Assembly: GCF_000247645.1 (NCBI RefSeq)
Contig: NZ_AHWA01000002.1
Location: 496,001-560,000 of the forward strand
DNA from: Salinibacterium sp. PAMC 21357
Lineage (GTDB): Bacteria > Actinomycetota > Actinomycetes > Actinomycetales > Microbacteriaceae
Length of the DNA: 64,000 nt
Reading direction: 5' to 3'
Made by a program: the position numbers and the translations under genes. The notes beneath the pieces were generated by a model, which saw only the letters and a program-made list of their open reading frames with translations, was not told the origin of the DNA and did not search any database. Position 1 is the stretch's first letter, and each line of letters starts with the position of its first letter. Below, piece after piece: positions 6,164 through 40,413 of this stretch.

Positions 6164-6214
6164 GAGGTATTCCCGCTCTGCTCCTTTCCTCCTTCGTCGC
6201 TCTCGCTCTTAGCT

Positions 6215-6298
6215 CCTCCCTTCCTCCCTTCCTCCCTTCCTCCCTTCCTCCCTTCCTCCCTTCCTCCCTTCCTTCCTTCCTTCCTTCCTTCCTTCCTC
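6215..6298. repeat. Simple-sequence array, (CCTCCCTT)7 then (CCTT)6
   Basis: Seven exact copies of the octamer CCTCCCTT run from 6215 to 6270. Six copies of the tetramer CCTT follow from 6271 to 6294 and lead straight into CCTC-GGAAATTC, the left arm of the inverted-repeat element. On the minus strand it is a pure-purine tract just upstream of frnE. Arrays of this kind change copy number by slippage. The octamer may be a fusion of CCTC and CCTT tetramers. Confidence 0.95.
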
Positions 6299-6387
6299 GG
6301 AAATTCAGGAAATCTGGTTCGGATCGCGGACAGCACCCGACTATTCGGGCGAGTTGCAACTCATCCCGACGGATTTCCTGAATTTCC
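6295..6387. repeat. Inverted-repeat element, copy A
   Basis: The left arm GGAAATTCAGGAAATC (6299-6314), preceded by CCTC, and the right arm GATTTCCTGAATTTCC (6372-6387) form a perfect 16-bp inverted repeat around a 57-bp centre. The centre contains smaller palindromes (CCCGA-CTAT-TCGGG and AGTTGCAACT). The right arm overlaps the last codons of the AbiEi/DUF559 gene. The same arms recur at 7346-7439 and 19741-19835 with unrelated centres. The structure resembles a MITE or REP-type element, but I do not recognise a described family. Confidence 0.85.
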
Positions 6388-7251
6388 AGATGTAGGCGGC
6401 GCGTGAGATGCCAATGCCATCTCCAGTGCTTGCAGAAACAAGTCCCACTGCGCGAAGATCATTTTTGCGCTCACGCTCATTGCGTGAAAACCAGCAATCG
6501 TGATCTCGATGCCCTTCAGGTGGTCTTCCTCGAAAGTGTGGGCGTGAAACTGCTTGCCGTTGATTTCGAGCCCGATAACACTGTCAATAACCAGATCGAT
6601 CCGCTTCGCTCCAACGGGGATTTGAATTTCAACGCGGTGGCCGGCACTCCTCAATCGCGTGCGGGTAAGGCTTTCCGGAAGGCTTTCGCAAGTACCGTCC
6701 ACCCACGACCTGATCCACCGCTTGCGCCGAGGCAGGCTGAGTATTAACAGCTCGAAGTCGAATTGGTCAATCTGTCCCGTGTACAAGGCCCAGTCAATGG
6801 CGGCAACTGCCGTTTCGAGAGATTCGTCGATGACAACTCTCCGAAGCGCTTCCGCCAGGCCGACGTGCCAACCAGATCCGCTCTCGTTTCTCGGCAATGG
6901 ATCCCAGTGCAGGCGCACACCAAGGCGTTGCCCAATTGGCTCTCTTCGGTTCCACTGGCTGCGGAGCCGTGCCGCGTTCTGCGATACCGAAACGTGAAGC
7001 GGATGCTCCCCTAAAACCCAGCCGCCCAAGTCACTGATCGCGGATATCCCAGTTAGACGCCCGCCGACGCGAACCGCCCTGACGCGCGGCGTTGTAACGT
7101 TCTCCGTTGTGTACCAACCTTGGCGCGCTCTCGCGACCAGCCCGTCTCTCACTGCCCGAGTTAAGTCCTCGTCCCGTGCACCTCTCGCGACAAGCTGACG
7201 TTTTTGCGCGAGACCGCCCAACTCACTGACTAGTTCCTGAATATCCGCCAC
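6361..7251 (-). CDS. AbiEi-type N-terminal domain with DUF559/Vsr-like nuclease C-terminus
   Basis: A 296-residue protein from a GTG at 7251. Residues ~1-60 (ELGGLAQKRQLVARGARDEDLTRAVRDGLVARARQGWYTT) resemble the winged-helix AbiEi antitoxin domain. The C-terminal third has the PD-(D/E)xK-like layout of DUF559/Vsr proteins: LRSAGHRVEIQIPVGAKRIDLVID, then IGLEINGKQFHAHTFEEDHLKGIEITIAGFH. Such two-domain proteins are multi-copy in Actinobacteria; their role is not established. No AbiEii toxin partner lies nearby. The last residues (SGNSGNPSG) are encoded by the right arm of repeat copy A. Codons 2-6 contain GGATATTCAGGAA, one mismatch from the arm core. The gene is bracketed by repeat copies A and B. 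Confidence 0.75.
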   Translation of the reverse strand: MADIQELVSELGGLAQKRQLVARGARDEDLTRAVRDGLVARARQGWYTTENVTTPRVRAVRVGGRLTGISAISDLGGWVLGEHPLHVSVSQNAARLRSQWNRREPIGQRLGVRLHWDPLPRNESGSGWHVGLAEALRRVVIDESLETAVAAIDWALYTGQIDQFDFELLILSLPRRKRWIRSWVDGTCESLPESLTRTRLRSAGHRVEIQIPVGAKRIDLVIDSVIGLEINGKQFHAHTFEEDHLKGIEITIAGFHAMSVSAKMIFAQWDLFLQALEMALASHAPPTSGNSGNPSG

Positions 7252-7345
7252 AACGACAACCCTGAGGTGACGTTCCGTATTCGAAAGGACGCCGTAAGGA
7301 TCAGTGGGGTTTGGCCGCGGTTTAGGGATGTGGAGTATGTGACGT

Positions 7346-7439
7346 CCTCGGAATTTCAGGAAAACTGCCAGAACGCTTACACGCTTGCCAGCATTTACAT
7401 AGGTCAGGCAGGAGGAGCGCTCGTTTTTCCTGAATTTCC
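7346..7439. repeat. Inverted-repeat element, copy B
   Basis: The left arm GGAATTTCAGGAAAA (7350-7364, preceded by CCTC) pairs with the right arm TTTTCCTGAATTTCC (7425-7439), with one mismatch, around a 60-bp centre. The orientation, judged by the CCTC prefix, is the same as in copies A and C. It lies about 95 bp upstream of the AbiEi/DUF559 start and is followed 10 bp later by a 15-bp minisatellite. Confidence 0.82.
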
Positions 7440-7449
7440 GCGGGATGGC

Positions 7450-7539
7450 GCGGAGCTCCGGGGTGCGGAGCTGCAGGGTGCGGAGCTGCAGGGTGCGGAG
7501 CTGCAGGGTGCGGAGCTGCAGGGTGCGGAGCTACGGGGT
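7450..7539. repeat. 15-bp tandem repeat, six units
   Basis: Six head-to-tail units of GCGGAGCTGCAGGGT occupy 7450-7539. The four central units are identical, and the outer ones (…CTCCGGGGT and …CTACGGGGT) are diverged, as expected when an array grows from its middle. A degenerate seventh unit follows to 7554. It starts 10 bp after the right arm of repeat copy B. The 15-bp period keeps a reading frame, but I see no credible gene here. Confidence 0.93.
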
Positions 7540-7600
7540 GCAGGGGCGCAGGGCAACAGGACAGGAGGGCCGCAGGGGCGCCCTGCCGCGGAAACAGAAA

Positions 7601-7625
7601 CGGACCCGGAACATGTCCGGGTCCG
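7601..7625 (-). terminator. Probable rho-independent terminator of glyS
   Basis: CGGACCCGGA (7601-7610) and TCCGGGTCCG (7616-7625) form a perfect 10-bp stem with a 5-nt loop. Read on the minus strand, it is followed by TTTCTGTTTCC, a weak U-rich tract. It sits 68 nt after the glyS stop. Confidence 0.7.
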
Positions 7626-7692
7626 CTTGCACCGCCACGTGACCACCTTTCGGCAGCCCGTGGACGGGTTAGGTGTTTCTTGGCGCGTTGCG

Positions 7693-9078
7693 CTAGCAGC
7701 CGATGAGCTCCTGTGCGAGGTAGCCCCGCAGCTCTTCGATCGGCATGCGCTTCTGTTCCATCGAGTCGCGTTCGCGGATCGTCACCGCGTTGTCGTCGAG
7801 CGAGTCGAAGTCGATCGTGACACAGAACGGTGTGCCGATTTCGTCTTGACGACGGTAGCGACGACCGATGGCTCCGGCGTCATCGAAGTCAACGTTCCAG
7901 TACTTGCGGAGGTCAGCAGCGATTCCACGTGCCATCGGCGACAGGCGTTCGTTGCGCGACAGCGGCAGTACGGCAACCTTTACGGGCGAAAGGCGACGGT
8001 CAAGGCGCAGAACGGTGCGCTTGTCGACACCACCCTTAGCGTTGGGAGCCTCGTCCTCGGCGTAGGCGTCGATGAGGAACGCCATGAGTGCACGGGTGAG
8101 CCCGAACGCAGGCTCGATGACGTAGGGCGTCCAGCGCTCATCCTTGGCCTGGTCGAAGTACGACAGGTCTGAGCCAGACGCTTCGGAGTGCGTGCGAAGG
8201 TCGAAGTCGGTGCGGTTGGCGATACCCATGAGCTCGCCCCACTCGCCGCCAGCGAACCGGAAACGGTACTCAACATCCACGGTGCGCTTGGAATAGTGCG
8301 AGAGCTTCTCTTGAGCGTGCTCGTAGAAGCGCAGGTTTTCAGGCTTGATACCGAGGTCGGTGTACCACTTCATGGATTCGTCGATCCAGTACTGGTGCCA
8401 TTCTTCATCCGTGCCGGGTTCGACGAAGAATTCCATCTCCATCTGCTCGAATTCACGCGTGCGGAAAATGAAGTTTCCTGGCGTGATTTCGTTACGGAAT
8501 GACTTTCCCACCTGGCCGATACCGAAGGGCGGCTTCATGCGAGCAGCACCCATGACGTTGGCGAAGTTGGTGAAGATACCCTGAGCGGTTTCGGGGCGCA
8601 GGTAGTGCATGCCCTCTTCGTTGTCGACGGGGCCAAGGTAAGTCTTGAGCAAGCCGGAGAAGTTCTGCGGTTCGGTCCATGATCCGGGCTGTCCGGTGTC
8701 AGGGTCGCGGATGTCGGCAAGCCCGTTCACGGGAGGGTGACCGTGCTTCTCTTCATAGGCTTCAAGAAGGTGGTCGGCGCGGTAACGCTTGTGGGTGTGC
8801 AGCGATTCGACGAGCGGGTCAGAGAAGACGTCGACGTGACCGGATGCTTCCCAGACTTTGCGGGGAAGGATGACGGCGGAATCGATGCCAACAACATCTT
8901 CGCGACCCTGAACAATGGTTTGCCACCACTGCTTTTTGATGTTCTCTTTGAGGGCGGTTCCCAGTGGGCCATAGTCCCAAGCTGAGCGTGAACCGCCGTA
9001 AATCTCTCCCGATTGGAAGACGAAACCTCGGCGCTTGGCGAGGTTGATTACGGCGTCGAGGGGGTTAGGCGTAGCCAC
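7693..9078 (-). CDS. glyS: Glycyl-tRNA synthetase, homodimeric type
   Basis: Class II synthetase that charges tRNA-Gly; the 461-residue length fits the alpha2 eukaryote/actinobacterial form, not the bacterial alpha2beta2 form. Visible signatures are [27 protein letters not shown] at the N-terminus, [13 protein letters not shown], motif 2 [31 protein letters not shown], and motif 3 in [16 protein letters not shown]. The C-terminal anticodon-binding domain includes [18 protein letters not shown] and ends [14 protein letters not shown]. It starts with GTG at 9078. A hairpin terminator follows the gene. It appears monocistronic. Confidence 0.96.
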
Positions 9079-9134
9079 TTAAAACTCCAATAGTCTGCCG
9101 AGCTGGATGCACGGTCGGCGGACATCCAGTTTAG

Positions 9135-10180
9135 CTAGACGCGCAGCGCAGCGATAACCGCCGCAACGTCTTCTTCGGTGTTCCAGAGGTGAAAGGCGGC
9201 GCGCAGTCGGCCGGCTCGACCGGAGGCGGTGATTCCTGCGGCGGTGAGTTTGGCGAGATCGGTTCCTGTTTCGTCTGGCCAGGTGACGATCGCTTGATTC
9301 TGTCGCTCGATTCCGAGCTCGTCGCACAGCGCGTTGCCAAGGCCGATGCAGTGTTCCCACACCTCGGAGATGTCGAGGTCGGCGAACATGGCGATGGGAT
9401 GCTCGGCACCTACCCACGCTTGCCAGGCGGGCGAAACATCGAATTGGCGCGCATCCTTGGCAAGGTTCATTTCGGTGCCGTAGACGCTGCCCCACACATC
9501 ATCACCGGCGTACCAGCCAGCCTGAACGGGAGTGATGTGCCGGCCGAAGTCTTCAGAGATTGTGAGAACGCGACACCGCGGGGCGAACACAACCATTTGT
9601 AGGCGTGGCAGACGGTTGCATCGAACTGAGTGGCATCCACCGGGTACACGCCAGCGGCTTGGGTCACGTCGCACAGCGTTCGCGCTCCGTGCTGGGCAGC
9701 CGCCGCGACAATCGCCTCGGTGTCGGCGACTTTGCCGTTGCAGGATTGGATGAGCGAGAACACGACGAGCGCGGTGCTGTCAGTGATCGAGGCGGCGAGT
9801 TGCGCCAGCGGAACCGCCTGCACGACGAGGTCGCGGTGTTGAAGAAAGGGGAACACGATTGATGTGAAGTCCGATTCGACGACGAGCACGTGGGAGCCAG
9901 CGGGCAGCGAGCACGCAACGAGCGAGGCCATCACCGAGGTCTGCGAGCCAATGGCAACGCGAGTGGAGTCGATGCCGACGAGGCGCGCGTAGTGCCCGCG
10001 CGTGCGCTCGACAATGTCGCCGTAGTTCATGGGGTTGCAGGTTGCCGTGGCCCACTGTTGAAGTTTCTCGGTCATCTCGGCCACGGCAGCGCAGGTCGGC
10101 AGGCCCATGGTGGCGGCGGAGAGGTAGCCGTGCGTGTTGGCGAAGCTCCCCATCGCGTGGGTCAGGGCCGGTGATGTCAT
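9135..10180 (-). CDS. Class V PLP-dependent aminotransferase / selenocysteine lyase-like, frameshifted
   Basis: The ATG at 10180 opens MTSPALTHAMGSFANTHGYLSAATMGLP. The PLP-binding lysine lies in FDATVCHAYKWLCSPRGVAF, as in cysteine desulfurase-like class V enzymes. After VAF the frame degenerates. The next frame continues with TISEDFGRHITPVQAGWYAGDDVWGSVYG and runs to TAG at 9135. One base is missing at 9564-9565: TTC-TC-ACA should be TTC-CTC-ACA, giving F-L-T. In-frame length is then about 348 residues, normal for the family. It is divergent from a LysR gene 81 bp away, which probably controls it. The substrate is unknown. Confidence 0.82.
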
Positions 10181-10220
10181 GCCTCTATAGTGCTCCCGTC
10201 GCATTCATGCGACAAGAGCA

Positions 10221-10241
10221 TGATTGGGATAGGAACAATCA
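10221..10241. promoter_or_regulatory. Candidate LysR operator in the divergent intergenic region
   Basis: TGATTG-N9-CAATCA is a perfect inverted repeat lying between the divergent PLP-lyase gene and the lysR gene, 20 bp before the lysR ATG. It contains the ATTG-N9-CAAT core, close to the T-N11-A arrangement known for LysR-type sites. Function is inferred from position and symmetry only. Confidence 0.5.
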
Positions 10242-10261
10242 CGTTTTGTTATGATTTGTGT

Positions 10262-11224
10262 ATGGACACCACGCCAGACCTCCTCACGCTGCGCATCGTT
10301 CGCGCAATCTCCGAACACGGCACCATCAGCGAAGCAGCCAGCATCCTCGGTTATAGCCAACCCGCCCTGAGTCAACACCTCACCCGTGCCCAAACCCGCC
10401 TGGGGCTTGCGCTCATTGTTCGGGCCGGCCGCGGGGTTCGCCTCACCGAAGCCGGGCGAGCGCTCGCCAGTCACGCCGTCACCGTGCTCAATGCGGTGGA
10501 TGCGGCGAGCGCCGAACTCGCAGAACTGGCGGGCCTCTCGAGCGGAACGGTTCGTATCGCGGCATTCCCGACCGCGTCGTCGACGCTCGTGCCGCGGCTG
10601 ATCCGTCAATTGCGGCAGCAGCATCCGAATTTGACGGTGAACTATGTGGAGGCCGAGCCTCCCCAGGCGCTGCAGCTGTTGCGGGATGGCGCGGCCGATG
10701 TAGCGATCACGTTTTCTTACCCAGAGGACCGGGCTGACCCGCACCTGGCGCGTGATGGCGGTCATATGACGGTTCCCCTGTTTACGGAGCCCGTCGTGTT
10801 GGTCTTGCCCGATAGCCACTCTCTCGCGAAAGCGGATGATGTGCGCTTGGCCGAGCTCGCCAACGATCCCTGGATTGCGGGCTGCACTCTGTGCCGCGGC
10901 CACTTGCTCGCCCTCTGCAATCTCGAGGGTTTCGCTCCCGCGATCGGCCTCGAAACGGATAACGCACTGGCGGTACTGAACTTTGTGTCGCGAGGGCTTG
11001 GGGTTGCGTTGCTTCCCCAGCTGGCGCTGTCGTCGCTGACGTTGCCGGAGGGCGTGAGCATCCACGCCCCGCAGCCATCGAGCGAGCGCACGATTCAGTA
11101 CGTCATTCAGCCGGGGGCTACGCGGATCCCGAGTGTGGCGACAACGATTGCTACGTTGACTGCTCTGGATGGCGCGTCGTGGGGTTTGCGGGACTACCCC
11201 GAGAGTGAGCGCACCGCGCGATAG
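10262..11224 (+). CDS. LysR-family transcriptional regulator
   Basis: A 320-residue regulator. The N-terminal winged helix-turn-helix is LLTLRIVRAISEHGTISEAASILGYSQPALSQHLTRAQTRLGLALIVRAGRGVRLTEAGRAL. The substrate-binding domain starts at about residue 90 (SGTVRIAAFPTASSTLVPRLIRQLRQQHP) and includes FVSRGLGVALLPQLAL. The ATG at 10262 fits the family length, whereas a start 72 nt upstream adds a poor leader. It is divergent from the PLP-lyase gene with a symmetrical site between them. Its 3' end overlaps the convergent cysteine desulfurase gene by 31 nt. Confidence 0.9.
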   Translation: MDTTPDLLTLRIVRAISEHGTISEAASILGYSQPALSQHLTRAQTRLGLALIVRAGRGVRLTEAGRALASHAVTVLNAVDAASAELAELAGLSSGTVRIAAFPTASSTLVPRLIRQLRQQHPNLTVNYVEAEPPQALQLLRDGAADVAITFSYPEDRADPHLARDGGHMTVPLFTEPVVLVLPDSHSLAKADDVRLAELANDPWIAGCTLCRGHLLALCNLEGFAPAIGLETDNALAVLNFVSRGLGVALLPQLALSSLTLPEGVSIHAPQPSSERTIQYVIQPGATRIPSVATTIATLTALDGASWGLRDYPESERTAR

Positions 11225-12348
11225 GCGGTCTCGATCTCGGCGGCGACGGTGGCGAGCTCTTCGGCTGTGGTTTCCCCACTGAGGCTGAACCGCACCGCGG
11301 TTTGTGCGATTTCTTCGTCAATTCCCATGGCGGTGAGCACGTGGGAGGCGTCGTCGCTGCCTACGGCGCAGGCTGAGCCTGCTGAGCAGATGATGCCGGC
11401 GCGACCGAGTTCGAGCAGCAGTGACTCGCCACTGGTGCCGGGGAAACAGAACGACGCATTGTTGGGGAGGCGGTTTGCTGTCTCGCCGAGCTCGGGTCCG
11501 GTGAGGATCGCGGCCGGCACGCGAGCCTGCACGTCGGCCACGAAGTCATCTCGCAACCGCCTGATGCGCTCTGCGCGCTCAGCACGGTCGTTTTCTGCGA
11601 GCGCGAGGGCATGAGCGAAGCCCACCGCACCGGCAACGTTCTCCGTTCCGGAGCGTTTGCCACGTTCTTGGCCTCCCCCGTGCAGCACGGGCTCGAGGCT
11701 TCGGCGTCCCTTGGCAATAAGCACACCAATACCTTTCGGTGCCCCGAGTTTGTGACCCGAGAGGCTGAGCGCGTCGACGCCCAACACCGCAGGGTCGAGA
11801 GGAAGCCAGCCTGCTGCCTGCACCGCATCCGTGTGCAGCGGCACCCCGTGTACCTGGCACAGCTCGGCTATCGCCGCGATGGGCTGTACAACACCGACCT
11901 CGTTATTGGCGTACATGATCGTGCAAAGTGTCGTGTTGGGGCGCAGCGCGTCACGCACGTTGTCGAGATCGACGAGGCCTCGACTGTCTACCGGCAACAC
12001 TGTGACTTCAAAGCCATGGATCCGTGCCAGGTAGTCGACTGATTCGAGCACAGCTTCATGCTCTACGGCACTCGTGACGATGTGGCGCCCCCGAGGTTCG
12101 GCGAGCGCAAATCCTTTGATCGCTAAGTTGTCTGACTCTGTGCCACCCGAGGTGAAGATGACATCGGATGCGCGACACCCGATCGACGCCGCTACACTCT
12201 TGCGCGCACCATTAAGGGCGCGCTTCGCGGACTCCCCCAGCTCGTGATGACTTGAGGGGTTGCCAAAGTCTCCTGTCAGCAACGGCCACATCGCCTCAAG
12301 CACCTCACGGCGCACGGGGGTGGTTCCTGCTGAGTCGAGAAAAATCAT
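11194..12348 (-). CDS. Cysteine desulfurase, IscS/NifS family, in the NAD operon
   Basis: PLP enzyme that takes sulfur from cysteine for Fe-S cluster assembly. The 384-residue protein shows MIFLDSAGTTPVRREVLEAM, the PLP lysine in ALSLSGHKLGAPKGIGVLIAKG, and the mobile loop with the catalytic cysteine in ICSAGSACAVGSDDASHVLTAMGI. Its ATG overlaps the nadC stop (ATGA). Because NadA needs a 4Fe-4S cluster, a desulfurase co-transcribed with nadA-nadB-nadC probably serves NadA maturation; this is inference from context. The C-terminus overlaps the convergent lysR gene. Confidence 0.92.
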   Translation of the reverse strand: MIFLDSAGTTPVRREVLEAMWPLLTGDFGNPSSHHELGESAKRALNGARKSVAASIGCRASDVIFTSGGTESDNLAIKGFALAEPRGRHIVTSAVEHEAVLESVDYLARIHGFEVTVLPVDSRGLVDLDNVRDALRPNTTLCTIMYANNEVGVVQPIAAIAELCQVHGVPLHTDAVQAAGWLPLDPAVLGVDALSLSGHKLGAPKGIGVLIAKGRRSLEPVLHGGGQERGKRSGTENVAGAVGFAHALALAENDRAERAERIRRLRDDFVADVQARVPAAILTGPELGETANRLPNNASFCFPGTSGESLLLELGRAGIICSAGSACAVGSDDASHVLTAMGIDEEIAQTAVRFSLSGETTAEELATVAAEIETAYRAVRSLSG

Positions 12349-13205
12349 CGGGCGGTGGCCCTCACGGCAATGTCGAGACCGAGATCAAGCGAGCGCACGC
12401 TGTGAGTGAGTGCCCCTACGGAGATCACATCAACCCCTGTTGCAGCGATGGCGGCAATCGTGTCGAGGTTCACACCCCCGCTGGCTTCGACAATGGCGCG
12501 CCCGGCTACGAGTGCAACACCGGCCCGAAGGTCTTCGAGTGAGAAGTTATCGAGCATGATGGTGTCGACCCCAGCCGAAACCACTGTCTCTACTTGATCG
12601 AGACGATCGACCTCCACCTCGAGGTGGGTTGTGTGTCCAATGCGTTCTCGTGCCCGGCGGATCGCCTTCCCCAGGTCGATACCGGATGCCGCAAGCACCG
12701 CAAGGTGGTTGTCTTTCGCCATCACCGCATCCGAGAGACTGAAGCGGTGATTGTGGCCACCCCCTGATCGAACTGCATGACGTTCCAATGCGCGCAGGCC
12801 GGGGGTCGTCTTGCGTGTGTCAACTACCCGCGCGTGTGTGCCCGCCACTTGCGCAACGTACGCTGCCGTCTGGGTGGCGATTCCCGACATCCGTTGGCTG
12901 AGGTTCAAGGCAATGCGTTCCGCTCTGAGCACGGCACGGGCGTTGCCGGAGACGGAAGCGAGTTGCTGTCCGGCGGTGAAGGTGTCGCCGTCGCTAGCCT
13001 GAAGCGTGACCTCGGCCTGAGCATCCACCAGCATGAAGGTGCGGGCGAACACGTCGAGGCCGCTCGCGACCCCGGGCTCGCGCGCATTGAGGACGGCCGT
13101 GGCCACAGCATCGTCGGGCACAAAAGCCTCGCTCGTGACGTCTCCCCAGGGTGCGTCTTCCGCGAGCGCCATCAGGATGACGTTGTCAACGAGCTGCTGG
13201 TTCAT
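12345..13205 (-). CDS. nadC: Nicotinate-nucleotide pyrophosphorylase (carboxylating)
   Basis: Converts quinolinate and PRPP to nicotinate mononucleotide, the third step of de novo NAD synthesis. The 286-residue protein has WGDVTSEAFVPDD, ERIALNLSQRMSGIATQT, the substrate-binding VVDTRKTTPGLRALERHAVRSGGGHNHRFSLSDAVMAKDNH, EVEVDRLDQV, and the phosphate loop ASGGVNLDTIAAIAATGVDVISVGALTHSV. ATG at 13205 overlaps the nadB stop by 4 nt, and its own stop overlaps the desulfurase start in the same way, so the operon is tightly coupled. Confidence 0.95.
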   Translation of the reverse strand: MNQQLVDNVILMALAEDAPWGDVTSEAFVPDDAVATAVLNAREPGVASGLDVFARTFMLVDAQAEVTLQASDGDTFTAGQQLASVSGNARAVLRAERIALNLSQRMSGIATQTAAYVAQVAGTHARVVDTRKTTPGLRALERHAVRSGGGHNHRFSLSDAVMAKDNHLAVLAASGIDLGKAIRRARERIGHTTHLEVEVDRLDQVETVVSAGVDTIMLDNFSLEDLRAGVALVAGRAIVEASGGVNLDTIAAIAATGVDVISVGALTHSVRSLDLGLDIAVRATAR

Positions 13206-14785
13206 CGGGGCACCGTTTCTGCTTGGTCTTCAGCGGGGATGCGGTCTTCGGCTGGGATGAAGTCTCCCGCAACGTTGACGGCCGCCCACCGTGTGGAGAA
13301 GGCTAGTTCTTCGCGCGTCTCCGGGTAATCGGTGCGTTCGTGTGCTCCGCGGGATTCTTGGCGGCGAAGGGCCGCGACGACAACGAGGCGGGCGAGGTCG
13401 AGCAGGTTCACGTTCTCGGCACCCTCGACAGTGTTTGCCTCGGAGTGCCAGCTGGCCAAGATAGCCGCTGCTTCGTTGAGGCGTGTCGCATCCCGTTCAA
13501 GGCCAACATGGCTCCACATGAGTTCACGCAGCTGATCCCGAGTGAACGGCGCCTTGCCGGTGATCTCGAATTGGGGCTCGAGAGCATCAACCTCAATCGC
13601 TCGCTGGGGCTCGTTGAGGGCATCCGCGGCCCTCCAGGCAAACACCAACGATTCGAGCAGGGAGTTTGAGGCGAGACGGTTTGCTCCGTGCACACCGGTG
13701 CAGGATGCTTCGCCGACGGCATAGAGTCCCCGCACGCTCGTGCGGCCATCGATGTCGGTGCGGATGCCGCCCATCCAATAGTGGGCTGCCGGCGTGACCG
13801 GAATCGGTTCATTGCCCCAGTCGAAGCCATGCTGCTCGCACACTTCGGTAATGCCCGGGAATCGCTTCGCGAGAAACTCAGACCCGAGAGCCGTAGCGTC
13901 GAGCATGATCGGCCGACCGCCCTGCTTTTCCATGGCACGAGCAATGCCGCGAGCAACAATATCGCGCGGGGCTAGTTCGCCATCCGGGTGCACTTCGAAC
14001 ATGAAACGTTCGCCATGCTCATCCAGCAGGGTCGCCCCTTCTCCGCGCACCGCTTCAGAGACGAGCGGGTTGCCGGGAACGGCGAGCGATGTGGGATGAA
14101 ACTGGAAGAATTCAACATCGGCCAGAGCCGCTCCAGCACGGTAAGCGGCAGCAACACCATCCCCGGTCGTGACGAACGGGTTAGTGGTGTGCTTGTACAG
14201 CTGGCCAGCACCACCGCTAGCGATGATCACAATGTCGCCATCGATCACGCGAGAGTTTCCATCGGGAGCAATCACATCAATGCCGGTGACGCGCGGCTTT
14301 CCGTCGGCATCCGTCTCCGTAATGAGATCGCGCATAAACGTGTATGCGTACGTCTCCACGGCGAGCGCACGAACGGCGCGAAGCAATGCCACCTCGATGG
14401 CGAGGCCAGTGGCATCCCCACCGGCATGAATTACGCGGCGCGAAGAGTGTGCGGCTTCGTGACCACGAGCCAACTCTCCATTGTTGATGCGGTCGAATTC
14501 AACTCCCAAGGAGATGAGCTCCTGCACGCGCAACGGACCCTCGCTACAGAGCACCTCAACGGCATCGCGTTCGCACAGTCCGGCACCGGCACGCATTGTG
14601 TCAGCAACGTGACTAGCCACCGAGTCATCCGGGAACAACACCGCAGCGATACCACCCTGCGCGTACTTGGTGTTGCTCTCCGCCATCTCTGCCTTTGTCA
14701 CGAGAACCACATCGTGGTGGGCGCTCGCGCGGTACGCAGTGATGAGCCCGGCAATTCCCGTGCCGACAACGATGACCCGTGCCAC
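13202..14785 (-). CDS. nadB: L-aspartate oxidase
   Basis: FAD enzyme that oxidises L-aspartate to iminoaspartate, feeding NadA. The 527-residue protein begins with a Rossmann FAD motif VIVVGTGIAGLITAYRAS. It has KYAQGGIAAVLFPDDS, the covalent-type loop region HEAAHSSRRVIHAGGDATG, and active-site FQFHPTSLAVPGNPLVSEAVRGEGATLLDEHGERFM. The segment HYWMGGIRTDIDGRTSVRGLYAVGEASCTGVHGANRLASNSLLE and a C-terminal helical domain follow. It starts with GTG two bases after nadA. Length is normal. Confidence 0.95.
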   Translation of the reverse strand: MARVIVVGTGIAGLITAYRASAHHDVVLVTKAEMAESNTKYAQGGIAAVLFPDDSVASHVADTMRAGAGLCERDAVEVLCSEGPLRVQELISLGVEFDRINNGELARGHEAAHSSRRVIHAGGDATGLAIEVALLRAVRALAVETYAYTFMRDLITETDADGKPRVTGIDVIAPDGNSRVIDGDIVIIASGGAGQLYKHTTNPFVTTGDGVAAAYRAGAALADVEFFQFHPTSLAVPGNPLVSEAVRGEGATLLDEHGERFMFEVHPDGELAPRDIVARGIARAMEKQGGRPIMLDATALGSEFLAKRFPGITEVCEQHGFDWGNEPIPVTPAAHYWMGGIRTDIDGRTSVRGLYAVGEASCTGVHGANRLASNSLLESLVFAWRAADALNEPQRAIEVDALEPQFEITGKAPFTRDQLRELMWSHVGLERDATRLNEAAAILASWHSEANTVEGAENVNLLDLARLVVVAALRRQESRGAHERTDYPETREELAFSTRWAAVNVAGDFIPAEDRIPAEDQAETVPR

Positions 14786-14787
14786 AA

Positions 14788-16077
14788 TTACGCTTCTTTC
14801 GTCGCTACCGGCGGCTTCGCGGCGAGCATCCGCTCGAGGGCGATGCGGGCCGGTTCGGCGACATCATCAGACACGGTGATCTGGTTGAGCACTTCACCGC
14901 GAACGAGCCCCTCAAGCACCCACGCCAAGTAGCCGGGGTGGATGCGGTACATCGTCGAACACGGGCACACCACCGGGTCGAGGCAGAAAATCGTGTGCTG
15001 CGGGTACTCAGCAGCCAAACGGTTGACCATGTTGATTTCGGTGCCGATGGCGAACGTTGTTGGCTCGGTGGCGGCAGCGACAGCCTTCTGGATGTAGTCG
15101 GTCGACCCAGCTTCGTCGGCGGCATCCACAACAGGCATCGGGCACTCGGGGTGCACGATCACGCGAACACCGGGGTGCTCGGCACGGGCCTGCTCGATCT
15201 GGCCGACATTGAAGCGCTTGTGCACGCTGCAGAAGCCGTGCCAGAGCACGACCTTCGCCTCATTGAGCGTTTCAGCGTCGTTGCCGCCGAGAGGCTTATT
15301 CGGGTTCCACATCGGCATGAGATCGGTCGAAATGCCCATCTTCTTTGCCGTGTTGCGACCCAAGTGCTGGTCGGGAAAGAACAGCACGCGCTGGCCACGC
15401 TCGTAAGCCCACTCCAGCACGGTGGTGGCGTTAGAACTTGTGCAGACGATTCCGCCATTACGGCCGCAGAAGCCCTTGAGTGCGGCAGACGAGTTCATGT
15501 ACGTCACCGGTATGATCGGCACGCGGCCATCGGCATCCGGTTCGGTTCCGTACACCTCAGTGAGTTGCTCCCAGCACTCTTCCACGGAGTCGATGTCAGC
15601 CATGTCGGCCATCGAGCATCCGGCGGCCAGGTTCGGCAAAATCACGGCCTGATTCGGTTGAGCGAGGATATCGGCAGTCTCTGCCATGAAGTGCACACCA
15701 CAGAAGATGATTGCTTCCGCATTCGGCACCGTCTGAGCGGCGTTTGCCAATTGAAAAGAGTCGCCAAGGAAGTCTGCGTGCCGCACAACCTCATCGCGCT
15801 GGTAAAAGTGGCCGAGAATTACGGCGCGATCGCCCAGAGTTGCCTTGGCGGCAATGATGCGGGCGTGCAAATCTTCGTTGGAGGCCTTTTGATACTCGAC
15901 AGGCAGCTGCCCCTGTCTCGGGGCACCGGTCGGAATAACGTCGCCCATTGAGGCGCCGGGGCCGTAGCTCGGCACACCGAGGTCGAAAGTCCACGGCCCA
16001 TCGGCCAGCTCGGGAGCACAAGTTTCGCCGTCTCCGGTCTTGGTGATGCGCTGAATAGTCGAATCAATTGATGACAC
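14788..16077 (-). CDS. nadA: Quinolinate synthase
   Basis: 4Fe-4S enzyme that condenses iminoaspartate with dihydroxyacetone phosphate to quinolinate. Cluster cysteines appear in AIIFCGVHFMAE, VIVHPECPMPVV and LDPVVCPCSTMYRIH; other family blocks are LGHFYQRDEVVRHADFLGDSF and YMNSSAALKGFCG. The GTG at 16077 is chosen because CAGGGAGC lies 6 nt before it; this start overlaps the end of the upstream nrtR-like gene by 14 nt. The resulting 429-residue length is normal for actinobacterial NadA, which carries an N-terminal extension. Confidence 0.95.
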   Translation of the reverse strand: MSSIDSTIQRITKTGDGETCAPELADGPWTFDLGVPSYGPGASMGDVIPTGAPRQGQLPVEYQKASNEDLHARIIAAKATLGDRAVILGHFYQRDEVVRHADFLGDSFQLANAAQTVPNAEAIIFCGVHFMAETADILAQPNQAVILPNLAAGCSMADMADIDSVEECWEQLTEVYGTEPDADGRVPIIPVTYMNSSAALKGFCGRNGGIVCTSSNATTVLEWAYERGQRVLFFPDQHLGRNTAKKMGISTDLMPMWNPNKPLGGNDAETLNEAKVVLWHGFCSVHKRFNVGQIEQARAEHPGVRVIVHPECPMPVVDAADEAGSTDYIQKAVAAATEPTTFAIGTEINMVNRLAAEYPQHTIFCLDPVVCPCSTMYRIHPGYLAWVLEGLVRGEVLNQITVSDDVAEPARIALERMLAAKPPVATKEA

Positions 16078-16780
16078 GAGTGCTCCCTGTCTTGTTGTGA
16101 CCCAGTGGGCCGTTGTCGACGAGCTCAACGCCCTCGTCATAGCGGTATAGCCTCGGCGGCCGGTGACGCCCGCCCACGACCACATGATCTGTCGGCACCA
16201 GTGAGCCCGAATTTTCGATCTGGCGGCGAAAGTTAGCCGGGTCGAGTTGTCGCTGCAACACCGCTTCGTGCACGAGTCGCAACTCGCTCAATGTGAAGGT
16301 TCCCCCGAGGAACGCACGCGCTATCCGGGAGTACTCCATCTTGGTTCGCAAGCGCCAGAGCGCGTAGTCGACGATGACGTTGTGATCGAACGCGAGTTCA
16401 GGCAGGTCGTCGGCCGCAAACCAGCGCACGTTCTCGCTTTCCGCGGCACGGTCAGCTTCTTCTTGCCGCACCAGTGCCCAGTAGACGATCGAGACAACTC
16501 TGCTGCTCACCGAACGTTCTACATCACCGAAGGCGTAGAGCTGTTCGAGGTAGGCCGGCTCTAGCGCGGTAGTTTCGAGCAAATTACGAGCCGCAGCATC
16601 CGCAAGGCTTTCGTCGTTGCCTACCCACCCACCAGGCAGTGCCCACTGGCCAGCGAACGGTTCGCGGTTGCGACGAACCAAGGGAATCCAGAGTGCGCTG
16701 TGACCCGACTCGGGAATGGGGCGAAGTGCAAAAATTACGGTCGAAACCGCGAGCGATATTCGCTGCTCATTCTTCTGCAT
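16064..16780 (-). CDS. NrtR-like Nudix transcriptional regulator of NAD synthesis
   Basis: A Nudix fold occupies residues ~10-140, with a degenerate Nudix box in GQWALPGGWVGNDESLADAAARNLLETT where catalytic glutamates are missing (an intact box reads GX5EX7REUXEEXGU). A C-terminal winged helix (MEYSRIARAFLGGTFTLSELRLVHEAVLQRQLDPANFRRQIENSG) follows. This is the NrtR layout: ADP-ribose-sensing repressors that bind DNA. It is the first gene of an operon with nadA, nadB, nadC and a desulfurase, which supports the role. The ATG at 16780 has AAGGGAGG just upstream; a GTG lies one codon earlier. Two GTCA-type palindromes precede it. Confidence 0.88.
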   Translation of the reverse strand: MQKNEQRISLAVSTVIFALRPIPESGHSALWIPLVRRNREPFAGQWALPGGWVGNDESLADAAARNLLETTALEPAYLEQLYAFGDVERSVSSRVVSIVYWALVRQEEADRAAESENVRWFAADDLPELAFDHNVIVDYALWRLRTKMEYSRIARAFLGGTFTLSELRLVHEAVLQRQLDPANFRRQIENSGSLVPTDHVVVGGRHRPPRLYRYDEGVELVDNGPLGHNKTGSTRVIN

Positions 16781-16800
16781 CACCCCTCCCTTCAGTAAGA

Positions 16801-16848
16801 GTCATACTGACCCGAACACAGAATACACCTTAAAGTCAGCCTGACCAA
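16801..16848 (-). promoter_or_regulatory. Promoter of the NAD operon with two NrtR-box-like palindromes
   Basis: On the minus strand TTGGTC (16843-16848) and TATTCT (16820-16825) form a -35/-10 pair with a 17-bp spacer. A perfect palindrome GTCAG-C-CTGAC (16835-16845) overlaps the -35 and spacer. A second, imperfect copy GTCATACTGAC (16801-16811) lies just downstream of the -10. Occupation of both would block initiation. I infer that they are NrtR autoregulatory operators from symmetry and position. Confidence 0.68.
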
Positions 16849-16860
16849 AACGGTGCGAGG

Positions 16861-17673
16861 CTAGAGGGAAGGGGTGTCCGGAGCATCAACAGCTCCACCA
16901 AAACGACGCGTGCGACGAGCATAAATCTCGATCGCCTGCCACAACTGCTCACGCGTGAAATCAGGCCACAGCGTATCCAAAAACACCATCTCGGCATAAG
17001 CGCTCTGCCAGGGCATGAAGTTGCTCATCCGCTGCTCGCCCGACGACCGCACAAACAGGTCAACATCCGGAAGCTGCGGCTGATAAAGACGTTTCTGGAT
17101 GAGCTTCTCAGAGACAGCAGACGGCTTCAGCTTGCCCGCCGCAACATCATCAGCAATCGACCGCACGGCATCCGCAATCTCGGTACGACCGCCATAGTTC
17201 ACACACATCGTGAGCGTCAAAGTGCTGTTCTTCTCCGTGAGCTTCTCAGCGAATTGCAACTCCTTGATAACCGACGTCCACAGCCGCGGGCGCCGCCCAG
17301 CCCACCGCACACGCACACCCCACTCGTTGAGTTGATCGCGGCGACGGTGCAAAACGTCACGGTTGAAGCCCATAAGAAAGCGCACCTCTTCGGGTGAACG
17401 GCTCCAGTTCTCCGTCGAGAACGCATAGACGCTGACATGCTTCACACCGATTTGGATCGCGCCAGCCACAACATCAAGCAGGCTCGCCTCCCCCGCCTTG
17501 TGACCTTCGACCCGAGTCAGCCCGCGAGCATTAGCCCAGCGACCATTGCCGTCCATGACAATCGCGATGTGCTCAGGAACCGCGCCCTTAGGCAGCGTTG
17601 GCGGCTGAAGACCCGTCCAATCCAACGGACGAAACTCCACAGCATCTTTATGAGTTTTTGCTACGCGGCTCAT
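16861..17673 (-). CDS. uppS: Isoprenyl transferase (undecaprenyl diphosphate synthase family)
   Basis: Cis-prenyltransferase that makes the long-chain polyprenyl diphosphate carrier for cell-wall synthesis. The 270-residue protein has the P-loop-like [63 protein letters not shown], and [37 protein letters not shown]. Usual Z-type synthases have RTSGEQRLSNFL; here [12 protein letters not shown] is a conservative variant. ATG at 17673 overlaps the recO stop by 4 nt. recO-uppS is a standard actinobacterial pair. Confidence 0.94.
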
Positions 17674-18398
17674 GCGCTCCGATCTACATGCTGAATGGAA
17701 CGAAGACTACGCTCCAAATGAAATTGGGCATACGCGGCAACGACACCGCTGGCCTGAGAACGCGTGCGCTCATCAGAAGCTTCAGCCACATCCCACGAAC
17801 CCGCAAGCAAAGCACCCAAAAGCTCTAACGTCTCAGAACTCAGACGGGGCGAACCAGGCGGGGCAACCTCATCAGCAACCACACCACCCAGCTGAGCCAC
17901 AAAGACCGAATGCGGTCCGGGAGCACCGGTGACGGCACAATCAACGAAGCTCGGCGCCCAACCCGCAATCGACAGGCTCCGTAATAGGTACGAATCAAGC
18001 GTGAGACTCGGATTGTGCTCGCGCCGCGCGAGAGACCGCAACGCACCCACCAGCAGCAGGTACTGCTGAAGCGAGCCGTCGTCATCCGTGACTTTGTCTG
18101 CCGTCTCGACCATCACGCTAGCGGCCGTATAGCTCGCATAGTCAGCGGTGATCTCCGAGCCGTACGAACCCAACGTTTCTGCCTGCTGGATGATGTCGAG
18201 GCTGCGCCCGATATAGCACTGGATGTCGGCAACCATAAAAGGCTCCAGCCGTGCTCCGAACTTGGAGGCTGTGCGGCGCACTCCTTTGGCTACCGCGCGA
18301 ATCTTGCCATGCTCGCGCGACAGCATCGTGACAATTCGGTCAGCTTCACCCAGTTTGTGGGTGCGCAGCACGACGGCTTCATCACGATAGGTAGGCAC
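17670..18398 (-). CDS. recO: DNA repair protein RecO
   Basis: RecO helps load RecA during recombinational repair through RecF. The 242-residue protein has an N-terminal OB-fold ([72 protein letters not shown]) and a helical C-terminal domain ([27 protein letters not shown]). The zinc-cysteine cluster found in some RecO proteins is reduced here to a single cysteine. It starts with GTG at 18398, preceded by ACTTGAGG. The stop overlaps uppS. Confidence 0.93.
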
Positions 18399-18555
18399 CC
18401 CTCAAGTATCCCCCGGCATGTTGCGGTTTGCTGAGCGACGGCCCGCACGCCCCTCGTATTGGAATCCTCTCCAGCAAATGAGTCAGCGTCGGAGTAGGTT
18501 TTAGGCAGAACTGGGTACCTACGCTGGACTTGTCTTCGGCTTCTGGGAGAACACG

Positions 18556-19347
18556 ATGATTCTTGTTACCGGGGCAACGGGCGCGCTCGGTCGGCCGACC
18601 GTTTCGCTTCTCACCGCGGCCGGGCATGATGTGCGCGCGCTGAGCCGACAACCCGCCCCTGACCCTGCCCGCGTTGTTGCCGACCTCAGCACCGGAGCCG
18701 GCCTCGCGGCTGCACTCACCGGTGTGACGACGGTGGTGCACTTAGCGACCGGAGCGAATACTCACGATTCGCAGCAGACTCGACAGTTGCTGCGGGCAAT
18801 CGCCGGACATCCGATCGAACACCTGGTCTTTATGTCGATCGTCGGAGTCGACAAACACTCCCTTGGTTTCTATCGCGACAAGCACTTGAGCGAGCAATTC
18901 ATAGCGGCCTCGGGAGCCCCGTACACAATTCTTCGCGCCACCCAGTTCCACAGTTTCGTAGCGCGCCTTTTTACGGCTCAGCGCCGATTGCCCATCACCG
19001 TCGTTCCCTCGTTTCGGATGCAGCCGGTGGCGGTCGATGAAGTCGCCGCCCGGCTTGTCGAACTAGTGGATGCAGGGCCGAGCGGCCGGGTAGACGACTT
19101 CGGCGGCCCCGGACAGCTCAGCTTTCGCCAACTCGCCCAGCAGTGGAACGCCGCCCACTCGCTTCGTAAACCGGTGTGGTCATTGCCCATTCTTGGCGCT
19201 GTCGGCCGATCTTTTGCTCACGGAGTCCACCTCGCGTCACTGCCCGGCGGCGGCAATATACCGTTTTCGGCCTACGCCGAAGCCCACGCCCGCGCTGCGG
19301 GTGCTGCCGGTGCTGCCGGTTCGCTTCGCGGTTCTGGCACGAGTTAG
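18556..19347 (+). CDS. NmrA-like NAD(P)-binding protein (atypical SDR)
   Basis: A 263-residue Rossmann-fold protein starting MILVTGATGALGRPTVSLLTAAGHDVRALSR (glycine-rich TGxxGxxG). HLVFMSIVGVDKHSLGFYRDKHLSEQFIAASGAPYTILRATQFHSF is typical of extended/atypical SDRs of the NmrA type, which often lack the catalytic Tyr-x3-Lys of true dehydrogenases. A low-complexity alanine/glycine stretch (RAAGAAGAAGSL) near the C-terminus is encoded by short GCTGCCGGT repeats. It is likely a redox sensor or NAD(P)H-binding protein; substrate unknown. It converges with, and overlaps by 4 nt, a truncated acetyltransferase. Confidence 0.82.
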   Translation: MILVTGATGALGRPTVSLLTAAGHDVRALSRQPAPDPARVVADLSTGAGLAAALTGVTTVVHLATGANTHDSQQTRQLLRAIAGHPIEHLVFMSIVGVDKHSLGFYRDKHLSEQFIAASGAPYTILRATQFHSFVARLFTAQRRLPITVVPSFRMQPVAVDEVAARLVELVDAGPSGRVDDFGGPGQLSFRQLAQQWNAAHSLRKPVWSLPILGAVGRSFAHGVHLASLPGGGNIPFSAYAEAHARAAGAAGAAGSLRGSGTS

Positions 19348-19613
19348 TCGGCAGCGAGCGCCTCCAACGGGCGGATCATCACCACGCTGTCGTAGGTTTT
19401 ACCTGGCCACTGGATCGTGGCAATGCGCGCGTCACGCTCGACAACCCAGCACTGACCGCCACGCGCTCGAACGAGTGTTGTGTGCGAATCCTGATCGACG
19501 GCGGTGTAGTTCAAACCCCGAGCGCCAACCTCGGCATAGGCCGCGTGGAGCACGCCGGTGCCACTTTCGGCATCGGCATCGGCAAATTCACGAACGCTTA
19601 GTGACGAATCCAT
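19344..19613 (-). pseudogene. Truncated GNAT acetyltransferase (N-terminal part only)
   Basis: From the ATG at 19613, 89 residues read SLSVREFADADAESGTGVLHAAYAEVG, then RGLNYTAVDQDSHTT and CWVVERDARIATIQW. This matches the N-terminal half of a GNAT N-acetyltransferase. The acetyl-CoA-binding V/I-x-P-x-x-Q/R-x-x-G-x-G/A region and everything after it are missing; the frame runs 20 residues further and stops beside the NmrA-like gene. It probably lost its 3' half in a deletion that brought the convergent neighbour close. A functional small protein cannot be excluded. Confidence 0.5.
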
Positions 19614-19650
19614 AGAGATATCTCATCAGTTGCCACTATTCGCGATGCAC

Positions 19651-19689
19651 CTCCGTTCCGCAGCTCCGTTCTGCGCCTCCGTCCCGCAC
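19651..19689. repeat. Degenerate 13-bp tandem repeat, three units
   Basis: CTCCGTTCCGCAG, CTCCGTTCTGCGC and CTCCGTCCCGCAC lie head to tail, 52 bp left of inverted-repeat copy C. The region 19614-20048 has no gene; it holds this array, the inverted-repeat element and a 10-bp minisatellite. Confidence 0.7.
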
Positions 19690-19740
19690 CCCCATTCACC
19701 GTCACCGCAATGCACCAAACGAAGGCTGCTCGTCGCCCCT

Positions 19741-19835
19741 CCTCGGAAATTCAGGAAATCGGAGCGCGTGGGGAGAGGAGCGAGCCGCACTCAGGAGCAG
19801 CGGCGCCCTGGCAATGCCGAATCTCCTGAATTTCC
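19741..19835. repeat. Inverted-repeat element, copy C
   Basis: The left arm GGAAATTCAGGAAATC (19745-19760), again preceded by CCTC, is identical over 20 bp to copy A. The right arm AATCTCCTGAATTTCC (19820-19835) pairs with it with two mismatches. The 59-bp centre is unrelated to the other copies and contains its own small palindromes (GCCGC/GCGGC and GGC-AAT-GCC). A tandem array follows about 55 bp later. Confidence 0.85.
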
Positions 19836-19880
19836 CAGTGTCGTGCCACTGCAGGGGGGATCCGGGAACGTTTGTTGGCC

Positions 19881-19984
19881 CAGCTGCGCAGCGTTGTGCG
19901 CCGCTGTGCGCCGCTGTGCAGCGCTGTGCAGCGCTGTGCAGCGCTGTGCAGCGCTGTGCAGCGCTGTGCAGCGCTGTGCAGCGC
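19881..19984. repeat. 10-bp tandem repeat next to copy C
   Basis: Six identical units of GCGCTGTGCA fill 19921-19980. Four diverged units precede them (CAGCTGCGCA, GCGTTGTGCG, CCGCTGTGCG, CCGCTGTGCA) and a partial unit follows. The period is not a multiple of three, so no protein repeat is maintained. It ends 65 bp before the start of the TRIC-family gene. Confidence 0.93.
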
Positions 19985-40045: not shown

Positions 40046-40240
40046 ACCTAGAGCGTAGGAAAAGGTACCAACGCGAGGAATCGGGATAACCCCCGAACCC
40101 AGTAGCGGAAAACTAGCGCCCGGCCCGTCAGTGCCACTAGATCTCGCCGACATGCGGCGCTGCATGGCGTGGCACGAAATCAGAAAAGCCCCGCTGCCCT
40201 AAACTGCAGGAGCAGGACAACCGCAATCTGGGGATGCTCG

Positions 40241-40400
40241 GCAATTGCTATAGCTCCACCGGAACCGAACAAACGTAGTTTGCTCGGCGCTGGGGTCGCA
40301 CAATTGCTGCGCAATTGCTATAGCTCCACCGGAACCGAACAAACGCAGTTTGCTCGGCGCTGGGGTCGCACAATTGCTGCGCAATTGCTATAGCTCCACC
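40241..40400. repeat. 70-bp tandem repeat, 2.3 copies, upstream of rpsT
   Basis: Units at 40241-40310 and 40311-40380 differ at one base only (T versus C at unit position 36), and a 20-bp partial third copy follows at 40381-40400. Each unit contains a hairpin CCGAACAAAC-GNA-GTTTGCTCGG with one mismatch, and GCAATTGC palindromes near its ends. The near identity implies a recent duplication. Otherwise the interval 40046-40539 has no gene. Confidence 0.93.
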
Positions 40401-40413
40401 GCGCTGGTAATGT
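40385..40413 (+). promoter_or_regulatory. Putative rpsT promoter
   Basis: TTGCTA (40385-40390) and TAATGT (40408-40413) have an exact 17-bp spacer. The -35 hexamer lies inside the partial third copy of the 70-bp repeat and the -10 lies just outside it. The implied leader of about 120 nt contains a stem-loop CATATGGTTC/GAACGATATG around a TTCGTC loop, which could serve S20 autoregulation. Confidence 0.5.

Follow-up and report, generated by a model that had tools for sequence, protein, structure and literature searches.

Helically phased inverted arm pairs beside an AbiEi-like, EDxHD/Vsr-like nuclease gene in Salinibacterium and other Microbacteriaceae: a candidate protein-and-site system

What recognises three short inverted-repeat elements in Salinibacterium sp. 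PAMC 21357, and why each of them lies next to a tandem array of its own, are the questions raised by the 64,000-nucleotide stretch analysed here (contig NZ_AHWA01000002.1, positions 496,001 to 560,000; the whole stretch is called the window). In each element (A, B and C) inverted 16-bp arms enclose a centre of 57-59 bp. Judged from sequence comparison and structure prediction, each element is probably a bipartite site on duplex DNA for the protein encoded at 6361-7251 between A and B (in other genomes, for its relatives), which would nick or cut there and beside whose sites repair would yield minisatellites. The initial annotation had noted the arms, centres and arrays from the letters alone; its observation is real and is larger than first described.

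The arms are present at the coordinates given for them, without mismatch to the 16-mer in A, with two mismatches per arm in B, and with none and two in C, and a tandem array with its own unit was confirmed next to each copy. At up to three mismatches the 16-mer was found seven times in the window (0.34 expected from shuffles), six of the matches forming the three inverted pairs and the seventh being an unpaired arm at 7231-7246. The element had been called three-copy, but the own genome (3.1 Mb, six contigs) holds 35 arm matches at this threshold, against three for the reversed control, and they form 8 inverted pairs of 79-112 bp. Arms are mostly paired, since 12 of the 15 genome-wide matches with up to two mismatches belong to inverted pairs (partner with up to three). 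The orientation that the three copies were said to share rests on a CTC extension of their left arms, which proves general to the arm once both arms of 152 elements are pooled. Pairs with the exact core occur in 37 of 398 Microbacteriaceae genomes (16 of 85 genera, 1-22 pairs per positive genome), and no pair with the reversed core pattern was found among the same 398. When one genome of each prokaryote species was scanned, at least 117 stretches came up. Among the 80 of these that were listed, 70 are named Salinibacterium, Rhodoglobus, Glaciihabitans, Lacisediminihabitans, Galbitalea or Schumannella (genera which we take to be members of the Microbacteriaceae) or bear the family name; the others are three from 'marine actinobacterium PHSC20C1', four from an unplaced Actinomycetota bin, two from Gordonia zhenghanii, and a 65-bp match in a Chitinophagaceae bin, which may be due to chance. 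The Gordonia pairs (L167:7698-7768, L171:199-269), outside the Microbacteriaceae, are both 71 bp long and have the same core. In one genome (G149) all 8 elements lie inside 82 kb (C1:1151498-1233091) around two pairs that lie 1061 bp from each other and together resemble A and B, and clustering was also seen among the listed places (at most ten per genome) of several other genomes.

The lengths of the pairs follow the DNA helix. Pairs were gathered by the exact core GGAAAYTCAGG...CCTGARTTTCC from 178 loci (the window and L061-L237), in a collection scan to which lengths of 64-115 bp were visible; removal of identical ones left 193 distinct pairs from 137 loci, many of them orthologous to each other and hence not independent. 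The outer lengths of 190 of the 193 fall into five classes, 69-71, 79-81, 89-93, 100-103 and 111-115 bp (152 of 154 in a first pass), with a Rayleigh R of 0.845 at 10.5 bp, and the centre-to-centre distances of the 16-bp arms amount to about 5, 6, 7, 8 and 9 helical turns. At one orthologous site, between dnaG (identified by Pfam) and a neighbour with HD and HD_assoc domains that is presumably dgt, the seven loci have elements of 69, 80, 90, 92, 92, 113 and 114 bp; the length of an element therefore varies by full turns of the helix. Pooling gives an arm of approximately CYTC-GGAAAYTCAGG-ARAT, its core being fixed by the search pattern. Pairs with arms of other sequence are also narrow in length, with 79-81 bp in G003 (two flanking pairs and five remote ones), and 68, 69, 69, 70 and 80 bp in G015. 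Long arm pairs at a FAD-binding-protein gene (309, 215 and 184 bp) have centre distances near whole turns as well; this was a post hoc observation, five of the seven long pairs have one common coding context, and they were excluded from the statistics. The 309-bp pair lies within the gene in five genomes (L065:2771-3079, L085, L088, L094, L113); in G012 and G005 no such gene was called there, and both arms are kept at outer lengths of 184 bp (L096:2173-2356) and 215 bp (L119:2087-2301). The unpaired arms of L067 and L084, located in a solute-binding-protein gene, resemble coding sequence and were left out.

Conserved ends around a free centre, as originally described, were also found at orthologous elements. 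Regarding the copies of A (14 loci, 91 locus pairs), the arms are 84% identical, the centres 40% and the outer flanks 34%; regarding those of B (17 loci, 136 locus pairs), the values are 83%, 39% and 37%, where centre identities come from equal-length pairs only (31 each for A and B) and the figure for the arms is inflated by the picking of loci with recognisable arms. Centres are likewise unrelated within the four genomes compared (equal-length pairs in three), except for one neighbouring couple in G023 with a likeness of 0.68; the centres of G023 as a whole are 0.41 alike, against 0.34 when shuffled, so that any trace of shared ancestry is weak at best. Between the two arms of one element there is no co-variation: at arm positions 13-16 the agreement within elements was 0.587, against a mean of 0.608 after reshuffling in the same genome, and 431 of 500 shuffles reached the observed value (69 of 71 congeneric elements, from genomes with at least three; the core, fixed by the search pattern, is outside the test). 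With lengths in phase and arms uncorrelated, a protein on duplex DNA is the natural reading, in which the arms would be its half-sites rather than hairpin stems. The same two results speak against the replication-stalling hairpin that had been offered as one cause of array growth, and a hairpin, cruciform or RNA element was rejected on them. Elements that act through single strands of DNA or RNA, as hairpins or cruciforms in the manner of a REPIN or a terminator, would account for the inverted arms and the free centre, and L302, a distant homologue from another family of the order, is flanked by elements that come close to perfect palindromes; phasing would nevertheless be useless to a hairpin, the variable arm positions do not co-vary, and neither a Y1 transposase in 11 genomes nor an Rfam match in positions 1-24000 of the window was found, so that such a role is very improbable. 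The L302 gene lies between two 72-bp near-perfect palindromes (1297-1368 and 2551-2622) that differ by one symmetric change, unlike the non-covarying arms of Salinibacterium.

The earlier proposal that something recognises the arms gained a candidate, for which the frame at 6361-7251 seems the right gene: it is flanked by A and B, and its family varies together with the arms, as set out below. The codon-based gene caller did not call this frame. The Pfam matches of its product, MTES_1575 and AbiEi_4, are both below the Pfam cut-offs, and AbiEi_4 was found in 14 of 22 aligned family sequences. Invariant across these 22 are E193, Q210, D219, E229, H236 and D243; the name of the EDxHD motif is from PMC3943268 (drawn on in excerpt, as are all papers cited here), and the assignment of residues was made in this analysis. 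AlphaFold2 with 18 sequences gave a mean pLDDT of 85.8 for the best model and 67-74 for the other four. The top Foldseek match was the AbiEi antitoxin 6y8q (E 1.9e-4, with a low whole-chain TM of 0.30/0.41), a match by fold that spans the N-terminal two-thirds, followed by 3hrl and then, for the C-terminal domain, by the I-Bth0305I catalytic domain 3r3p (target TM 0.77, E 0.05-0.06); alignment profiles matched 3hrl at 3.6e-10 and 3r3p at 0.0028. NCBIfam gave no match for five proteins of the family, and PADLOC gave weak matches only, mostly to AbiEi. According to the excerpted sources, the MTES_1575 domain is a Vsr-fold restriction endonuclease within a large fusion protein in a survey of HEPN domains (PMC3710099), the binding site of AbiEi consists of two 23-bp inverted repeats with a 3-bp gap, and the protein bends the DNA, the pairs of Rv2827c from M. 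tuberculosis have 13-bp gaps (PMC7319586), and I-Bth0305I forms a dimer on a target almost 60 bp long (PMC3943268). The other cause that had been suggested, nicking at the arms, is made plausible by the intact EDxHD/Vsr-like signature of the candidate, although the activity is a predicted one.

The gene and the arms occur together. The gene itself or a close orthologue (57-78% identity) is present in 14 of 25 same-genus genomes, among which are all 12 with at least three arm matches; the other two carriers (G004, G013) have one pair each, with the changed arm GGCAACTCAGGAC, beside the gene, and the 11 genomes lacking a close orthologue have 0-2 arm matches. The distance between the arm starts of A and B, 1051 bp in the window, is 1051-1071 bp in eleven congeneric loci, and a pair at the 3' end of the orthologous gene, the position of A, was found in 13 further loci. 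Among 20 congener homologues, mostly about 30% identical, most lie between two inverted pairs that share one arm sequence, which differs by clade. Under a fixed score, double-sided matching arm pairs were found in 40 of 52 homologues and in 4 of 150 control genes, which had been chosen without the GGAAATTC core in their flanks; 31 of the 52 scored above the best control. From other families of the order (L300-L304), 3 of 5 loci had a match, L302 alone above the best control. An exact-word test of both sides was positive for 13 of 20 homologues versus 5 of 725 control genes, the words of those five all being parts of the GGAAATTC arm. At the 13 exact-9-mer loci the lengths of the left and right pairs differ by 0-1 bp in 12 cases and by 12 bp in one, where agreement within 1 bp is expected at random in 4.5%. 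Across a set of 37 genes (the 31 that outscore every control, four weaker ones, the window gene and L238) arm similarity tracks protein identity, with a Mantel r of 0.59 that none of 2000 permutations reached; by parts, r was 0.61 for the N-terminal residues 1-100 and 0.43 for the nuclease part. The case that the N-terminal part reads the arm is thus strong but, since related sequences are not independent, falls short of decisive. No description of such pairs or of the gene family as a site-specific system was found in the literature searched, which excluded subscription papers, nor any mention of DUF559 together with AbiEi in the open part of it.

On the preferred reading, two protein monomers would each grip one arm by the AbiEi-like winged-helix part. 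Arms set whole helical turns apart would present the same face of the DNA, and the monomers would touch across a bent centre whose sequence would be without importance to binding. The fused EDxHD/Vsr-like domain, placed on or beside the element, would nick or cut, and repair beside the element would occasionally make short tandem duplications, from which minisatellites would grow. A gene would usually retain one cognate pair per side, and further pairs would be scattered in some lineages and long kept. The binding, the looping or bending, the cutting, and cutting as the cause of the arrays are steps that we infer; the coordinates of the features concerned are given in Table 1.

Table 1. Coordinates of the inverted arm pairs, the candidate gene and the tandem arrays in the window
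Feature	Position	Strand	Arms	Outer length (bp)	Remarks
Element A, inverted arm pair	6295..6387		6299-6314 and 6372-6387	89	overlaps 3' end of nuclease-like gene
Element B, inverted arm pair	7346..7439		7350-7365 and 7424-7439	90	upstream of nuclease-like gene
Element C, solitary inverted arm pair	19741..19835		19745-19760 and 19820-19835	91	
Candidate recogniser, 296-aa protein	6361..7251	-			AbiEi-like N-terminal part and Vsr/EDxHD-like nuclease domain; flanked by A and B
Tandem array, 8-bp/4-bp units	6214..6298	+			abuts outer edge of element A
Tandem array, 15-bp unit	7450..7553	+			11 bp outside element B
Tandem array, 13-bp unit	19647..19690	+			left of element C
Tandem array, 10-bp unit	19883..19984	+			right of element C

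Tandem arrays are enriched next to the elements. An array with a TRF score of at least 50 lies within 50 bp of 46 of the 193 elements, compared with 14 of the 235 other gaps between genes and 23 of 749 places picked at random, which for elements versus other gaps corresponds to an odds ratio of 4.9 (p about 1e-7, uncorrected for orthology); at a score of 70 the counts are 32 of 193, 9 of 235 and 8 of 719. Per 25 bp outside the arms, 58, 24 and 22 array rows were counted in the first 75 bp and 2-10 thereafter, overlapping rows of one array being counted separately. The claimed coupling to arrays is thereby borne out as an enrichment of about fourfold over other gaps, piled up within 75 bp, but not as the 'always' of the initial annotation. 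The units at orthologous A and B elements differ between genomes; the arrays therefore arose repeatedly. Array growth may follow the action of the nuclease-like protein, the alternative being that the elements merely lie in loose DNA.

Several observations count against the proposed mechanism. About three quarters of the elements have no array at the threshold used. Twelve of the 52 homologues lack a double-sided match, the best control equals or outscores 9 of the 40 matches, and the scored word of L238 differs from the arm recognised by eye. The p-values are too small, because orthology among the elements and relatedness among the proteins violate independence. Sites flanking the protein's own gene would be cut in its own chromosome, so that its activity would have to be held back or limited to nicking. 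In 400 kb around the gene of G019 just the two flanking pairs are present; in 380 kb of G022 there is, for one arm, one convincing remote pair of 76 bp, equal in length to the two flanking pairs, and for the other arm a weak 52-bp candidate only. The flanking pairs are thus the general feature, and the scattering depends on the lineage.

Scattered copies were followed in two further genomes. In G003, whose gene occupies the slot of the window gene between genes of the glycyl-tRNA-synthetase and DsbA-like types (the glyRS-dsbA slot) yet falls outside its clade, 13 exact CGCAACTCATGG sites were found, versus 0-1 in four other genomes. If one mismatch is tolerated, these sites form five remote and two flanking pairs of 79-81 bp, save for 95 and 111 bp; in the right-hand pair (L246:3539-3652) the outer arm is repeated at 16-bp steps, which gives outer lengths of 79, 95 and 111. 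Three of the five remote pairs lie at places where other genomes hold GGAAATTC elements, one lies near such a place without being the same, and one has no counterpart among the loci examined. One of the coinciding pairs lies in frame inside smc (identified by Pfam), and the remote elements have a CACGCC-like inner motif in common, as judged by eye. G015 has four remote pairs with AACAACTCAGGC arms (69, 70, 80 and 69 bp) and one of 68 bp beside the gene; for none of the four was a convincing GGAAATTC counterpart found among the loci examined. The arm of G014, TCCAAWTCGACGG, was uninformative at two mismatches, being too common (186 sites in G014 and 160-216 in the other four genomes). In-frame elements within smc follow an EYGP motif at L271:2297-2377 (G003), L138:1113-1193, L196:1595-1696 and L127; that of G003 has other arms and an adjacent GEAA minisatellite, and the right arm of L127 is degenerate.

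These copies bear on a serious competing explanation, doubtful on balance, according to which the gene and its two flanking pairs are a present or past transposon-like unit and the scattered pairs are its non-autonomous or leftover ends (similar to miniature inverted-repeat transposable elements (MITEs) or to solo ends) with slow turnover. It would fit the arms of G003 at three of five remote places that hold GGAAATTC elements elsewhere, one of them in smc, with their common CACGCC-like motif, and the presence of elements in coding DNA as well as their enrichment in convergent gaps (see below). In a tree of the family the glyRS-dsbA slot label has to change three times, and supported branches enforce two or more of these changes; in G009, which has no close orthologue, the slot is empty and without a recognised pair; and elements cluster near the gene in some genomes, such as the 8 within 82 kb of G149. 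Recent copying was however not seen, the centres of G023 being only modestly more alike than shuffled ones. Synteny within seven arm/protein groups speaks for vertical descent, with both flanks in common in 38 of 48 locus pairs, at least one in 41 and none in 7. No target duplication was established, as there was no precise empty site with alignable flanks, and relatives on mobile DNA were limited to one of 72,556 plasmid records (E limit 1e-6) and to none of 50,697 phage records (1e-4). Two single GGAAATTCAGGAGTT arms in G009 are possibly relics of a lost system, and a glyRS-dsbA gap of about 1.1 kb in G007 (L258), without a recognisable homologue of the gene, is possibly a decayed unit.

The placement of the elements is informative regarding a regulatory role. 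In gaps taken from our own gene calls, among which orthologous gaps repeat, elements are over-represented between convergent genes (35 of 122 vs 61 of 428, p 4e-4) and under-represented between divergent neighbours (21 of 122 vs 124 of 428, p 0.01), which speaks against promoter operators. The pairs might still be operators of a DNA-looping repressor, an AbiEi-like autoregulation grown to a regulon with an incidental nuclease domain: AbiEi and Rv2827c autoregulate through inverted-repeat pairs according to the excerpts of PMC7319586, one pair lies upstream of the gene, and helical phasing is typical of looping. This is rather unlikely given, in addition to the gap statistics, that the second pair is usually downstream of the gene, that elements lie inside smc and an inverted arm pair inside the FAD-binding-protein gene, and that the catalytic residues are invariant. 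A function as architectural sites that organise the chromosome, like REP/BIME or matS-type sites, is improbable: positions do recur across genera, and in several genomes the elements are clustered in one chromosomal region, but the own genome has just 8 pairs, 361 of the 398 Microbacteriaceae genomes have no exact-core pair, and the arms change along with one protein gene.

Among known systems the one most similar in its manner of working to the protein-and-site system proposed here is REPIN/RAYT, which, as far as the excerpts of PMC3116915 go, has inverted doublets with conserved ends and a freer spacer, cognate doublets beside the gene, and distinct single-copy genes of largely vertical inheritance at the species level, for which co-evolution of doublet and protein was supposed. 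REPIN/RAYT proper was ruled out, as PF01797 (Y1) was found in none of 11 genomes by a search whose control was positive in 5 of 14 known genomes. The present system differs in having an AbiEi-like and EDxHD/Vsr-like protein, with no Y1/HUH enzyme in those 11 genomes; in its 1-22 exact-core pairs per positive genome, where the excerpted source has hundreds of REPINs; and in its helical-turn spacing and arms without hairpin co-variation. With AbiE and Rv2827c it has in common the AbiEi fold in the N-terminal two-thirds and the inverted-repeat pairs bound by AbiEi-type proteins (gaps of 3 and 13 bp in the excerpts of PMC7319586). Unlike in AbiE, there is no adjacent toxin gene (no AbiEii gene adjoins the window gene, whose neighbours are of the DsbA-like and glyRS types), a nuclease domain is fused, pairs are found on both sides of the gene and elsewhere, and the arm gap is tens of bp. 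The EDxHD homing endonuclease I-Bth0305I has a related nuclease fold and, in the portion of PMC3943268 consulted, acts as a dimer on a long target; the present gene was not seen in an intron or intein, its DNA-binding part is AbiEi-like, and intact sites flank the gene rather than being split by it. Bacterial MITEs, of which one in P. gingivalis comes with a minisatellite (excerpts of PMC4596501), are similar in their short inverted repeats and associated tandem repeats, but here the centres are unrelated between copies and the arrays lie beyond the element, with a different one at each copy. No near-identical copies at different loci, the hallmark of insertion sequences and MITEs, were found in the genomes compared, where units are mostly syntenic. 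Every known family considered was either contradicted by the test of a defining feature or not demonstrable, and the system is therefore best placed apart from all of them.

A broader proposal, put forward tentatively and held with a little less than even confidence, is that AbiEi-EDxHD fusions form a new nuclease-and-site class in Actinomycetota, each fusion being bracketed by phased pairs of co-evolving half-sites that it both spreads over the chromosome and maintains, with cutting that seeds minisatellites next to the sites; it would be a counterpart of REPIN/RAYT with an unrelated, duplex-reading enzyme. The unnamed genes of the family, whose best models are AbiEi, MTES_1575 and DUF559, would then each gain a defined DNA target, legible beside the gene, and binding and cutting by the family would become directly testable. 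The puzzle of why bacteria retain enzyme genes in single copy along with dispersed cognate repeats would gain a second, unrelated type of enzyme, and there would be a concrete candidate for what gives rise to bacterial minisatellites.

Element C sits between an NmrA-like gene and a glycine-transporter gene, and the identical two neighbour genes are found in five congeners (L081, L086, L093, L102, L108). A tRNA search of the window found none. At 40235-40401 the window also contains a 70-bp tandem repeat (2.3 copies, 98% matches) that is unrelated to the elements.

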